A stretch of DNA of 47,983 bases from a virus, in IMG/VR virus record IMGVR_UViG_3300044981_000145, positions 1-47,983 of that record. One strand, given 5' to 3'. The translations under genes and the position numbers were made by a program. The notes under the pieces are model-generated. The model made no database searches, was not told the origin of the DNA, and was given only the letters and a program-made list of their open reading frames with translations. The first letter of the stretch is position 1. Each line of letters begins with the position of its first letter. Below are positions 2,381 through 5,658 of the stretch, piece by piece.

Positions 2381-2821
2381 TTAAGCTGCTTGTCGATAGC
2401 GGCGAGTGCGTCGGTGCTGTAGAGCGATACGCTGCCAATGAGCTTCGCCTTCGATTTGCTGTAGATACAACGTCACAAGATTCTTAAGCTTACGCATCCT
2501 TCCCGGTAGTTTGGTCTGTCGCGCGAACTGATAGGCTCGTAGAAACTCGCGAGGACCGAGCTTCGCTAGGTGAGCGTAGCTGTTTTCGAGCAAGGCGTCG
2601 CCTTCAGGAACGCTCCACGTTCGAAGCGAGACGATAGGCAAAGCGACTTGGGAGTCGCGTACCTGACCCTTTTGAGCGTTCCAAGCGATAAGGTGAGCGA
2701 AGAACTCCGGTTCTTGCGACGCGGCTACAACGCCGACCTGAAGATACTCGTCAAGCTTTCCGTGAGGTGATTTGGTGAGTTCGGAGATAATACGCTGCTT
2801 CGTGAGTGCGGCTTCTGACAT
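2381..2821 (-). CDS. Short TROVE-like (Ro60-like) protein
   Basis: 146 residues, ATG preceded by AGAGAGG. The central part shows a pattern I associate with TROVE proteins: 'FFAHLIAWNAQKGQVRDS' (helix ending G-x-x-R-D), then 'LAKLGPREFLRAYQFAR' and 'LPGRMRKLKNLVTLYLQQ', then 'WQRIALQHRR'. The order and spacing fit part of the alpha-helical ring of Ro60/Rsr, which binds Y RNAs and misfolded RNAs. It is far shorter than full Rsr (about 530 residues) and has no vWA domain; a vWA protein is encoded separately at 4894-5658. It directly follows the RNA units at 2848-3260, which supports an RNA-binding role. Assignment is by eye and uncertain; a different HEAT-like helical protein is the main alternative. 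Confidence 0.5.
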   Translation of the reverse strand: MSEAALTKQRIISELTKSPHGKLDEYLQVGVVAASQEPEFFAHLIAWNAQKGQVRDSQVALPIVSLRTWSVPEGDALLENSYAHLAKLGPREFLRAYQFARQTKLPGRMRKLKNLVTLYLQQIEGEAHWQRIALQHRRTRRYRQAA

Positions 2822-2847
2822 TTGGGGCTGTCCTCTCTTAAGAAAAA

Positions 2848-2975
2848 CGGCGTTAAGTTAGTCAGGAACGACTGTTGCATCATCCTAAGTGATGTGCCTT
2901 ACCGTTAGGCTACGTTCGCTTGCGCGAATGACAGGATTCGAACCTGTATATCATGTAACCTGACAGGAAACGCCG
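2848..2975 (-). ncRNA. Permuted tRNA-like RNA, unit 3 (YrlA-like candidate)
   Basis: Read on the minus strand, tRNA parts appear in permuted order: T arm (2931-2947, loop TTCGAAT), acceptor 3' strand (2924-2930), GCAA cap (2920-2923), acceptor 5' strand (2913-2919), D arm GCCTAACGGTAAGGC (2896-2910), anticodon arm with loop CTTAGGA (2878-2894). The acceptor helix pairs 6 of 7 and is closed by a GNRA-type tetraloop, so no free 3' CCA exists. The break is in the variable region, which opens into the flanking helix CAGG/CCTG and the outer helix CGGCGTT/AACGCCG. TTTTT follows the outer helix, giving a terminator-like end. This is the topology expected of a tRNA mimic of the YrlA type; a true permuted tRNA gene needing circularisation is the alternative. 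Confidence 0.65.
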
Positions 2976-2981
2976 AGAATT

Positions 2982-3127
2982 CTTGACGTTAAGTCGCACA
3001 GCTTTGTTCCTTCTGCTAGTCCCCCGTCGATGTGGGGGACCTAGGGTTTGAACCTAGATGAGGCTTTCGCCTCACTTCCTTATCAGGGAAGTTGCATTTG
3101 CCATGTAAGCTGAACAGAAACGCCAAG
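2982..3127 (-). ncRNA. Permuted tRNA-like RNA with long variable arm, unit 2
   Basis: Minus-strand order: anticodon-type arm CTTCC-CTGATAA-GGAAG (3075-3091), long variable-type hairpin TGAGGC-GAAA-GCCTCA (3059-3074), T arm CTAGG-TTCAAAC-CCTAG (3041-3057), acceptor 3' strand GTCCCCC (3034-3040), 8-base cap (3026-3033), acceptor 5' strand GGGGGAC (3019-3025), then a D-arm start TAGCAGAAGG. The acceptor helix is perfect over 7 bp. The break lies in the D loop, whose two sides lead into inner helix CAGC/GCTG and outer helix CTTGGCGTT/AACGTCAAG (one G-U). A class II shape combined with anticodon-position GAT is not a normal tRNA identity, which argues for mimicry rather than decoding. Confidence 0.6.
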
Positions 3128-3135
3128 CTTTTTAA

Positions 3136-3430: not shown

Positions 3431-3439
3431 GACTCAGTC

Positions 3440-3468
3440 AGGTTACCATGCCCTAGTTATTAAGTCAA
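3440..3468 (-). promoter_or_regulatory. Sigma70-type promoter for the RHH/tRNA/TROVE unit
   Basis: On the minus strand TTGACT, 17-base spacer, TAACCT. The -10 ends 9 bases before the GTG of the RHH-like gene. Confidence 0.6.
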
Positions 3469-3515
3469 GCACTATATTTGCCGTGTTTTCAATAACTTAG
3501 CTCTTTTTGTAATTT

Positions 3516-4658
3516 TTACCTAACCTGACTCCTTTGCTTCGCATACTCAAGCGCGCTCTTGATATCATCAAGCGTAGCCAGAGGTGCGTGCACTCTTTGT
3601 AAGCCAGGTCGATTGGGGTTGATGAACAACATGTCTCCCTGGCTAAGCAGATGCTCTGCTCCCCCACAACCAAGAACGGTACGTGAATCTGCCTCACTTG
3701 GCAGGCGGAAGGCGAGACGAGCAGGGAAATTTGCTTTGATATCACCTTCCAACAACTTAACGCTTGGCCGCTGAGTCGCGGCGATGACGTGAATCCCAGT
3801 AGCCCGAGCCTTTTGAGCGAGGTACGCAAGCTTTCGCGAGGTAAGCGCGCCAAGAGTAGTAGTTCTATCGCCGCTTGGGTCTTGTGGGTCTGGGACTCTC
3901 TGACGGTTACTAAGCAAATCTGCGAGCTCGTCGATAACGACAAGAACGTAAGGGAGGCGAGCTTTTGAGCCTTGACGTTGGGAGTTGTATTCGAGAATGT
4001 TGCGGGTGTTGGTCTGACCAAAGGTTTTGAGCCTCCTTTCCATCTCGACCGTAAGCTCGTCGAAGCGCTCGATTGTCAGCCCTACTGTCGTGGCGATTGG
4101 GCTGCGAAGGTTGTCGGCGCGCTCGAACTGGGTAAACTCGACGCCCTTTGTGTCGCTTAGAGCAAACTCAATGTCGTCTTTGCCGTAGTTAAGTATGATA
4201 CCACCGATGATGCTATTTAGAAGTGTCGACTTGCCACCACCCGTCGAGCCTGCAATGAGCAGATGAGGCATCAGCGTAAGGTCTTCGACGACGAGCTTGC
4301 CTAGGTAGTCGATGCCTAGAATCATCGGAAGCTTGTACTTCGAGGTGTCGAGCGTACAGTGATTATACCACTTGACCCATTGGCGCTCTTTGTTCGGTAC
4401 GAAGATACCGACGGCGCTCTCGCCGGGCATTCGCTTTACCATTACGTCTTCGGCGCCGAGGGTCACCGCAAAGTCTTGCGACAAGCCTTCGAGGTGTGCT
4501 ACTTTCGTCGAGCCCTGTGGGAGGAATCGGTAGACCGACACAATAGGGCCGACACTAATTGGGTCAACGAAAGTCGCGTTGAGTCCAAGCTGGCTCAGCT
4601 TGTGGGCGATGACAACGACTACAGCGCGTTGTTCGTCGGTTTGTGTTGTTGTAGTCAT
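3516..4658 (-). CDS. FtsK/SpoIIIE-like DNA translocase
   Basis: 380 residues. Residues about 35-95 match the FtsK alpha/beta lead-in (GPIVSVYRFLPQG, HLEGLSQDFAVTLGAEDVMV, GESAVGIFVPN). Walker A GSTGGGKST is at 137-145 and Walker B VLVVIDELADLL at 238-249, followed by the FtsK-family 'GIHVIAATQRPS' and 'FRLPSEADSRTVLGCGGAEHLLSQGDML'. There is no N-terminal membrane region and no gamma winged-helix, so it is a soluble motor core. Such ATPases pump double-stranded DNA. In a phage with its own terminase the role is unclear: genome segregation, conjugation-like transfer or intracellular DNA handling. ATG overlaps the upstream stop (ATGA), indicating co-translation. Confidence 0.9.
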   Translation of the reverse strand: MTTTTQTDEQRAVVVVIAHKLSQLGLNATFVDPISVGPIVSVYRFLPQGSTKVAHLEGLSQDFAVTLGAEDVMVKRMPGESAVGIFVPNKERQWVKWYNHCTLDTSKYKLPMILGIDYLGKLVVEDLTLMPHLLIAGSTGGGKSTLLNSIIGGIILNYGKDDIEFALSDTKGVEFTQFERADNLRSPIATTVGLTIERFDELTVEMERRLKTFGQTNTRNILEYNSQRQGSKARLPYVLVVIDELADLLSNRQRVPDPQDPSGDRTTTLGALTSRKLAYLAQKARATGIHVIAATQRPSVKLLEGDIKANFPARLAFRLPSEADSRTVLGCGGAEHLLSQGDMLFINPNRPGLQRVHAPLATLDDIKSALEYAKQRSQVR

Positions 4659-4894
4659 AAAGGCGTTAGCGCAGCTCGATAGAAATCATTGCATCGATTA
4701 GCGACCTCAGCGATTTCTTCTCTGGTCATAAGGTCGTCGACGGTTATCTTTCTTTTGAGTCTGGCCTCGAAGCAAGAAAGACATACACGAACACAATCGT
4801 AACGGTCAAAGAGTTCTGCCCAGATGCTTTGCTTTACCATGAAGCAGATGTATGACTCTTGACAGTTGTCGCAGCACTTTATAATATGAGGCAT
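4655..4894 (-). CDS. Small zinc-binding protein
   Basis: 79 residues, start overlapping the vWA stop (TAATG), end overlapping the FtsK start (ATGA). Carries CCDNC and a later CLSC pair, a typical four-Cys zinc arrangement (about residues 7-10 and 38-41), then a helical tail. Its position between vWA and FtsK genes with coupled translation suggests a partner of one of them. Function unknown. Confidence 0.65.
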   Translation of the reverse strand: MPHIIKCCDNCQESYICFMVKQSIWAELFDRYDCVRVCLSCFEARLKRKITVDDLMTREEIAEVANRCNDFYRAALTPL

Positions 4895-5658
4895 TACCGA
4901 CGCACCTCACTCGCCCCGAGCTCCTCAGCGCTTACCGAGCCATTGGTAAGCTGTGCTCTGTGGCCCGGTGTCAGGAAGCCAAAGCTGTTAGCAAAGGCTG
5001 AGACGTCGGTAAACTTCAAATACAAGCCGCCAGTCTCCTTGGCGATGAGTCGAAGCAGTTCTTCGCCTGACGTCGAGTCGCCTATGTGGACGCAGTCGAT
5101 GGGTATTCCCGCCTTTTTGTACAGAGACAAAACGCCTTCGGTTTCGCGGGGTTCCTCTTCGTCTAGGTCACGGTAGCGATTCCAGTCTGTCGCTTCGCCG
5201 TCGCTGACGATAATCCCACGCGTCATTGGTATCTTTTCAAGACAGCGAACGACGCATTGATGCATTGGGGTGTTGCCTGACGCCGAAAGCATCGACGTTT
5301 GACTTGTTATCAAGAAGTTTATGTTGGTCAACGCAAGCTCAAGCGAAGCTGGGAAGGTCTCGACAGCGATGCTCGTGTTTTGAAAGTTGCATCTGTTAAC
5401 AAAGTTATCAATAGCGTCTTTAAGAAGCTCGATCTTCGCCTTGTTACCTTTGCTTCCTATAGTGTAGTCAGCCGGCGAGCTCATGCTTGAGGAGCGGTCG
5501 AGCATTAAGCAGATACGGTGAGGCATCGACGAGGCGTCGGGTTGTGAAGCTTTCGCCTGATTGACGCGAGACTGAAAAGGCGTCGAGGTCGAACGAAGCT
5601 TGCCTAGCGACAAGCCGCTCGGTGGTGGCGAAGAGTCTTTCTTGACAAGGTCTGACAT
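4894..5658 (-). CDS. von Willebrand A (vWA) domain protein
   Basis: 254 residues, ATG after GGAGGAAT. After a Ser/Pro-rich 45-residue N-terminus comes a vWA fold with a complete MIDAS: D54-x-S56-x-S58 (LDRSSSMS), T130 (SGNTPMH) and D153 (IVSDGEATD). Such domains bind protein ligands through a metal ion. In Ro60/Rsr a vWA domain follows the TROVE ring; here a TROVE-like protein is encoded separately (2381-2821) in the same direction. A 45-residue disordered N-terminus could serve as a docking tail. Alternative: an AAA-ATPase partner of the MoxR/vWA type, though no MoxR is visible. Confidence 0.85.
   Translation of the reverse strand: MSDLVKKDSSPPPSGLSLGKLRSTSTPFQSRVNQAKASQPDASSMPHRICLMLDRSSSMSSPADYTIGSKGNKAKIELLKDAIDNFVNRCNFQNTSIAVETFPASLELALTNINFLITSQTSMLSASGNTPMHQCVVRCLEKIPMTRGIIVSDGEATDWNRYRDLDEEEPRETEGVLSLYKKAGIPIDCVHIGDSTSGEELLRLIAKETGGLYLKFTDVSAFANSFGFLTPGHRAQLTNGSVSAEELGASEVRR
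5394..5410. repeat. Dispersed palindrome copy 2
   Basis: TGTTAACAAAGTTATCA, one change from copy 1, inside the vWA gene. Confidence 0.5.

Follow-up and report, generated by a model that had tools for sequence, protein, structure and literature searches.

Locus organisation

The IMG/VR virus record IMGVR_UViG_3300044981_000145 is a contig of 47,983 bases, and the window analysed here is the whole of this record. On its minus strand a gene for a protein with a vWA domain, three RNA units and a 146-aa open reading frame (ORF) lie within 3.3 kb, and in the first-pass annotation, which was made from the sequence alone, this arrangement had been read as a possible split Ro60 system, in which the TROVE and vWA parts of Ro60 are encoded by separate genes beside their Y RNAs. 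The present analysis points to another explanation: the locus is very probably a Ro60 operon with an internal deletion of about 1.3 kb, or with an assembly break, in which the Y RNAs stayed intact. The features on which this rests are as follows.

2381-2821, minus strand: 146-aa ORF, Ro60 N-terminus
2405-2821, minus strand: N-terminal ~139 residues of phage Ro60 (first part of TROVE), 43-60% identity to 16 full-length N-termini
2381-2404, minus strand: non-homologous tail (RRYRQAA region), out of frame past the junction; alignments A1 and A3 stop there
2365-2409, minus strand: possible tail of a ~100-aa small post-Ro60 gene (ALAAIDKQLKAVGA and stop, in another frame), suggestive only
2850-3260, minus strand: three RNA units, directly 5' of the 146-aa ORF
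3136-3260, minus strand: U1, assigned as Y RNA; stem CCCGCT/AGCGGG; TTCGG-TTACATG ... CCGAA-GCGACT; linear tRNA-Met(CAU) at 3162-3238 with encoded CCA
2985-3124, minus strand: U2, assigned as Y RNA; stem GGCGTT/AACGTC; CAGC-TTACATG ... GCTG-TGCGACT; circularly permuted tRNA mimic
2850-2975, minus strand: U3, assigned as Y RNA (YrlA-like); stem GGCGTT/AACGCC; CAGG-TTACATG ... CCTG-ACTAACT; permuted tRNA mimic
4894-5658, minus strand: separate vWA protein, assigned as a lineage core gene outside the Ro60 cassette from synteny in loci L005-L015 without Ro60 and in L020 beside an intact Ro60

The short ORF and the full-length phage Ro60 family

As a direct query the 146-aa ORF gave no convincing sequence match in Pfam, PHROG or PDB, and therefore the family was reached through full-length relatives. 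The initial search gave relatives on three viral contigs, all of them 488-504-aa proteins with a C-terminal vWA domain, and a profile search of viral contigs gave 21 loci. These comprise 16 distinct full-length proteins, 487-520 aa long and free of internal stops, together with one distant, shorter protein. In the full-length proteins TROVE and vWA stand in one chain, and the DxSxS, T and D residues of the metal ion-dependent adhesion site (MIDAS) are invariant. PHROG 850 ("RNA-binding protein") is matched by all 16 members and Pfam vWA_Ro60 by two, and none of the 16 matches Pfam TROVE (PF05731) at E 1. The best PDB sequence match of the family profile is human RO60, over the TROVE and vWA regions (E 0.0046), and the AlphaFold2 family model (predicted local distance difference test score, pLDDT, 83) is matched by Foldseek to a TROVE-domain entry (9kop), Ro autoantigen (1yvp), Deinococcus Rsr (2nvo) and Ro60 of the Thermus phage phiLo (9l5y), with E of about 1e-10 to 1e-7. 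These PHROG, vWA_Ro60, RO60 and structure matches identify the family as Ro60 despite the Pfam TROVE miss, and the family is too divergent for that model. No cellular homologue was found in a scan of genome contigs, which used short N-terminal patterns only.

The A2 profile recognises the window ORF with E 7.5e-60 at positions 2-139 of 490, so that its homology to Ro60 is established via the 16 phage proteins carrying the Ro60 fold. After residue ~139 the frame continues with seven residues unrelated to Ro60, and the remaining part of the protein, namely the rest of TROVE and the Ro60-type vWA domain with its MIDAS, had no match anywhere in the 48-kb record by profile search; the ORF contains neither a complete TROVE ring nor a C-terminal vWA domain in the same chain. 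The earlier description of this ORF as TROVE-like was right as to its family, while a complete short TROVE domain is not what it encodes: the short length is best explained by truncation of a protein of ~490 residues. The comparison of predicted structure with TROVE, proposed as a check, had a similarly divided outcome, since a Foldseek search with the model of the fragment by itself found nothing meaningful among solved structures, as is expected for a short helical repeat, and the full-length family model matched Ro60.

An unannotated gene of ~100 aa stands directly 3' of the full-length Ro60 gene in 14 of the 16 distinct loci (L020:5835-6140, L016:6585-6887, L017:7461-7766 and 11 further Ro60 loci). 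Its product is probably helical or a coiled coil, has no convincing Pfam or PHROG family and is likely a Ro60 partner. In two phages with full-length Ro60 (L002 and L003) large tRNA arrays of 19 and 23 tRNA genes, respectively, are also called beside it by ARAGORN.

Y RNA units with tRNA-mimic heads

The 447-nt RNA stretch folds with z = -4.7 relative to shuffles. Each unit consists of an outer stem, an internal loop and an inner stem ending in UUACAUG, followed on the 3' side by the inner partner, NNACU and the outer partner. A descriptor of this Y-type stem finds exactly U1-U3 in 48 kb (shuffle mean 0.2). Among the 16 loci with full-length Ro60 it matches at 14 sites, distributed over 9 loci and in every case on the Ro60 strand and upstream of the gene, with 0 matches in ten loci that have only the separate vWA gene; when loosened, and with 8 as the lowest score accepted, it detects 11 of the 16 and again none of the vWA-only loci. 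As the descriptor was drafted after some of the units had been seen, its specificity weighs more than its sensitivity. The two-part stem (UUACAUG / NNACU) recurs only upstream of phage Ro60 genes, and the three units are on these sequence grounds assigned as Y RNAs; in this point the first-pass annotation, which had called them Y-RNA-like, is supported by the shared stem, the descriptor and the folding score.

The units differ in their heads. U1 carries a linear complete tRNA-Met(CAU) with CCA, and the evidence for this unit includes an ARAGORN call, a score of 62.1 bits with the Rfam tRNA model, a fold z of -2.7, the descriptor match and an orthologous unit in L020. The U2 head (fold z -4.1) has an anticodon arm with GAU, a long variable arm, a T arm, a capped acceptor and a weak D arm, and that of U3 (fold z -4.0) has a T arm, a GCAA-capped acceptor, a D arm and an anticodon arm with UAG, with a T run after it. 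Unrotated, U2 and U3 are not called as tRNA; after rotation at the capped acceptor ARAGORN calls them tRNA-Ile(GAU) and tRNA-Leu(UAG), with 0 tRNA calls in 2000 shuffled controls of the two units. When all units were rotated by brute force, U1 and U3 were recovered and U2 was not, and in relatives this test gave linear heads in L019, L020 and L024 and permuted heads in L019, L020, L022, L023 and L034. The heads are opened in three ways, at the acceptor end, between the D arm and the anticodon arm, and between the anticodon arm and the T arm. Complete tRNAs with CCA inside a Y-type stem were observed at 3162-3238 on the minus strand of the window and at L020:4078; in both, the tRNA 5' end overlaps the UUACAUG motif.

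That these are ordinary phage tRNA genes and not Y RNAs is very improbable: U1 is indeed a complete tRNA-Met with CCA, however U2 and U3 lack a free acceptor end and become tRNA-like only when rotated, and the Ro60-linked two-part stem is common to all three.

The natural comparison is bacterial Rsr (Ro60) with YrlA (RF02553), including the Salmonella YrlA structure 6CU1 and the RYPER complex with PNPase. In published YrlA the basal stem tethers Rsr and supports D, T and acceptor arms, and PNPase is bound by the head (PMC8394870); the RNA is circularly permuted relative to tRNA (PMC11472068). Competitive inhibition of an anticodon nuclease has been suggested for Salmonella YrlA (PMC7790460). 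The window shares with this system a Y-type basal stem beside a Ro60 gene and a permuted head resembling tRNA, including T arm, D arm and capped acceptor (PMC11472068, PMC8394870). In contrast to it, the window heads have anticodon arms, three openings and in one case a linear tRNA that ends in CCA; the protein is cut short, and the YrlA score is below the family cut-off: U3 scores 27.9 bits (E 0.0013) against a gathering score of 69, and U1 and U2 have no match to Rfam YrlA. One unit of L003 scores 42.5 bits, above U3. The basal stem with its Ro60-linked motif and the tRNA-like head are thus both present, without the Rfam YrlA gathering cut-off being reached. The U1-U3 heads are whole tRNA mimics, a variant in comparison with known YrlA, which has no anticodon arm. 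The literature searched, which did not cover the main reviews, gave no description of whole mimics that have anticodon arms and are opened in several ways, of a split Ro60 or of these phage Y RNAs. No rtcA or rtcB homologue was seen beside the window cassette, where no search for them was made.

The separate vWA gene and gene order

Read along the minus strand, the genes follow in the order DnaJ-like, 90-aa ORF, vWA, 79-aa ORF, FtsK/SpoIIIE, 53-aa ORF, RNA units, 146-aa ORF, Cys/His gene and exonuclease, and the FtsK/SpoIIIE-like ATPase gene separates the vWA gene from the RNA/Ro60 cassette. The neighbouring features are given below, followed by those of L020.

5937-6419, minus strand: DnaJ-like gene
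Between the DnaJ-like gene and the vWA gene, minus strand: 90-aa ORF
Between the vWA gene and the FtsK/SpoIIIE ATPase gene, minus strand: 79-aa ORF
3516-4658, minus strand: FtsK/SpoIIIE-like ATPase (Pfam 4e-31), assigned by synteny as a lineage core gene outside the cassette
3269-3430, minus strand: 53-aa ORF (ORF53)
1586-2230, minus strand: 214-aa gene with a Cys/His cluster
567-1589, minus strand: PD-(D/E)XK exonuclease
L020, 1269-2024: separate vWA
L020, 2356-3498: FtsK
L020, about 4050-4340: Y RNA units
L020, 4370-5848: full-length Ro60
L020, 5835-6140: 101-aa ORF
L020, at 6251: Cys/His gene
L020, at 9081: exonuclease

The vWA ORF at 4894-5658 has, as had been noticed, a complete MIDAS pattern (DRSSS, T, D) and lies ~2 kb upstream of the 146-aa ORF on the same strand. 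Its match to Pfam VWA_2 is below the cut-off, and it has no match in the annotated phage collection. Eleven related viral loci (L005-L015, with two pairs of near-duplicates) encode the same separate vWA protein and share, as far as their contigs reach, the order dnaJ-like, vWA, FtsK, ORF53, Cys/His gene and exonuclease; no Ro60 was found by profile in these records, several of which are fragments. Conversely, in 15 of the 16 records with full-length Ro60, many of them fragments, the separate vWA had no match. The sole exception is L020, the nearest of the syntenic phages, which contains both the separate vWA gene and, behind its Y RNAs, an intact 492-aa Ro60 with its own vWA domain. Because eleven related loci have the separate vWA but no Ro60, and the 15 other Ro60 records showed no match to it, it belongs to the phage lineage as a core gene and not to Ro60. 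It resembles stand-alone phage vWA proteins in its MIDAS-type vWA domain and differs from them as a lineage core gene that adjoins FtsK and DnaJ-like genes and has no Ro60 link.

These data bear directly on the split system, in which the 146-aa protein and the separate vWA protein would assemble on the Y RNAs as a two-chain Ro60. Such a system would agree with the closeness of genes and RNAs on one strand and with the complete MIDAS; nevertheless, it is extremely improbable. The co-occurrence of the parts in related phages, proposed earlier as a check, speaks against functional pairing, given the eleven vWA loci without Ro60, the absence of a vWA match in the other Ro60 records and the intact Ro60 beside the separate vWA in L020; moreover, the resemblance of the separate vWA to that of Ro60 does not exceed a generic MIDAS match (BLASTP E 0.045, single pair), and with much of TROVE gone the ring could not close.

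Two further elements were observed in this region. A hairpin CCTCCCTCG...CGAGGGAGG at 2250-2340 on the minus strand has counterparts preceding the Cys/His gene in L005 and L006, and its 3' strand (TGAGCACGACGAGGGAGG) is conserved; the insert includes, in L006, a T arm like that of tRNA and, in L005, a loop (CTCATAA) resembling that of an anticodon arm, and the folding of the L005 and L006 forms is marked (z about -4), that of the window form being unremarkable. At the very start of the record (1-150, plus strand) there is a GCC-rich tandem repeat (cctccgccgccgcc...), perhaps a coding repeat of the minus strand.

The junction

Past the junction ALAAIDKQLKAVGA is read as 14 codons in another frame, with a stop at 2367-2365. 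Compared with the C-termini of the small post-Ro60 genes, this tail has a mean score that is reached by 9 of 1000 shuffles, which is suggestive of the end of that gene; the hidden Markov model (HMM) search gave no match for a small-gene tail, and the junction DNA compared with L020 scored no better than other L020 tiles (14 of 292 equal the score), so that with the HMM and DNA comparisons unconfirming the identity is not claimed. If ALAAIDKQLKAVGA is the end of the small gene, the gap would be about 1.3 kb as measured on L020. The Ro60 C-terminus was rejected as the origin of the out-of-frame tail, as 346 of 1000 shuffles score as high.

Interpretation

Several observations weigh against a simple internal deletion. 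The right-hand end of the deletion is weakly supported by the HMM, shuffle and DNA comparisons, and a search that possibly excluded near-identical records gave no further assembly sharing this junction. The family-invariant residues are kept in the fragment about as well as in intact members, with no decay, which means that the truncation is recent, or is an assembly break, or that the fragment is still constrained. The second of these, a sub-case of truncation in which Ro60 is whole in the actual phage and two places were joined during assembly, is rather unlikely; the single metagenomic record, the lack of a second copy of the junction and the retained residues favour it, however there is no direct sign of a break and the flanking genes stand in the expected syntenic order. 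The third would make the fragment a functional mini-Ro60, whose N-terminal helical repeats alone bind Y RNAs as a chaperone, a tether or a dominant-negative partner of another Ro60. An open frame without excess changes at conserved sites, a fragment model predicted as helices (pLDDT 83) and the intact Y RNAs upstream are compatible with such a function, yet no other member as short was found, the frame ends in unrelated residues and the model matches no solved fold, and this explanation seems quite improbable. An RNA-only remnant is unlikely, too. In it the three Y-type tRNA mimics would need no Ro60 from the phage; they would serve as tRNA decoys or make use of another Ro60, and one target could be host defences that cleave tRNA.

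The preferred explanation, a Ro60 operon cut by an internal deletion or by an assembly break, may be put as follows. In a phage lineage with records of ~45-50 kb, a Ro60/Y RNA cassette would have been inserted with FtsK/ORF53 on one side and the Cys/His-cluster gene on the other, and the Ro60 gene would have been interrupted in the window record. In an intact cassette such as that of L020 the Y RNAs are expected to bind the Ro60 ring through the two-part basal stem, and the tRNA-like head may be, by analogy with Rsr, Y RNA and PNPase, a gate or tether for a partner enzyme or for tRNA-handling factors. As only the RNAs and the first ~139 Ro60 residues remain, the window phage probably makes no working Ro60, and its RNAs may be leftovers; alternatively, they may serve as tRNA mimics on their own or together with another Ro60. 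The separate vWA protein would have another role.

Phage Ro60 is already known from cluster C/AF mycobacteriophages (PMC12363180) and jumbo phages (PMC7824862). Like PHROG 850 and the phiLo protein (9l5y), both of which the full-length relatives match, the present family is a phage-borne TROVE and vWA protein; it differs from them in its divergence from Pfam TROVE and, in the window copy, in being reduced to the N-terminal third.

Thus, the locus is best regarded as a known type of phage RNA-protein system that has been damaged and whose Y RNAs are unusually varied, and not as a new split system; the data are a strong argument against a two-chain Ro60 at this locus. They point to a divergent phage Ro60 family, missed by Pfam TROVE and tied to Y RNA arrays and an unannotated partner gene. 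The Y RNAs show that complete tRNA mimics with openings at various positions, among them an unpermuted, CCA-bearing tRNA, fit on a single basal stem, and they are in this respect more varied than known YrlA. Should these RNAs be expressed and bind to Ro60 or to tRNA enzymes, the reason for which phages combine Ro60 with tRNA mimics could be tested on them directly.

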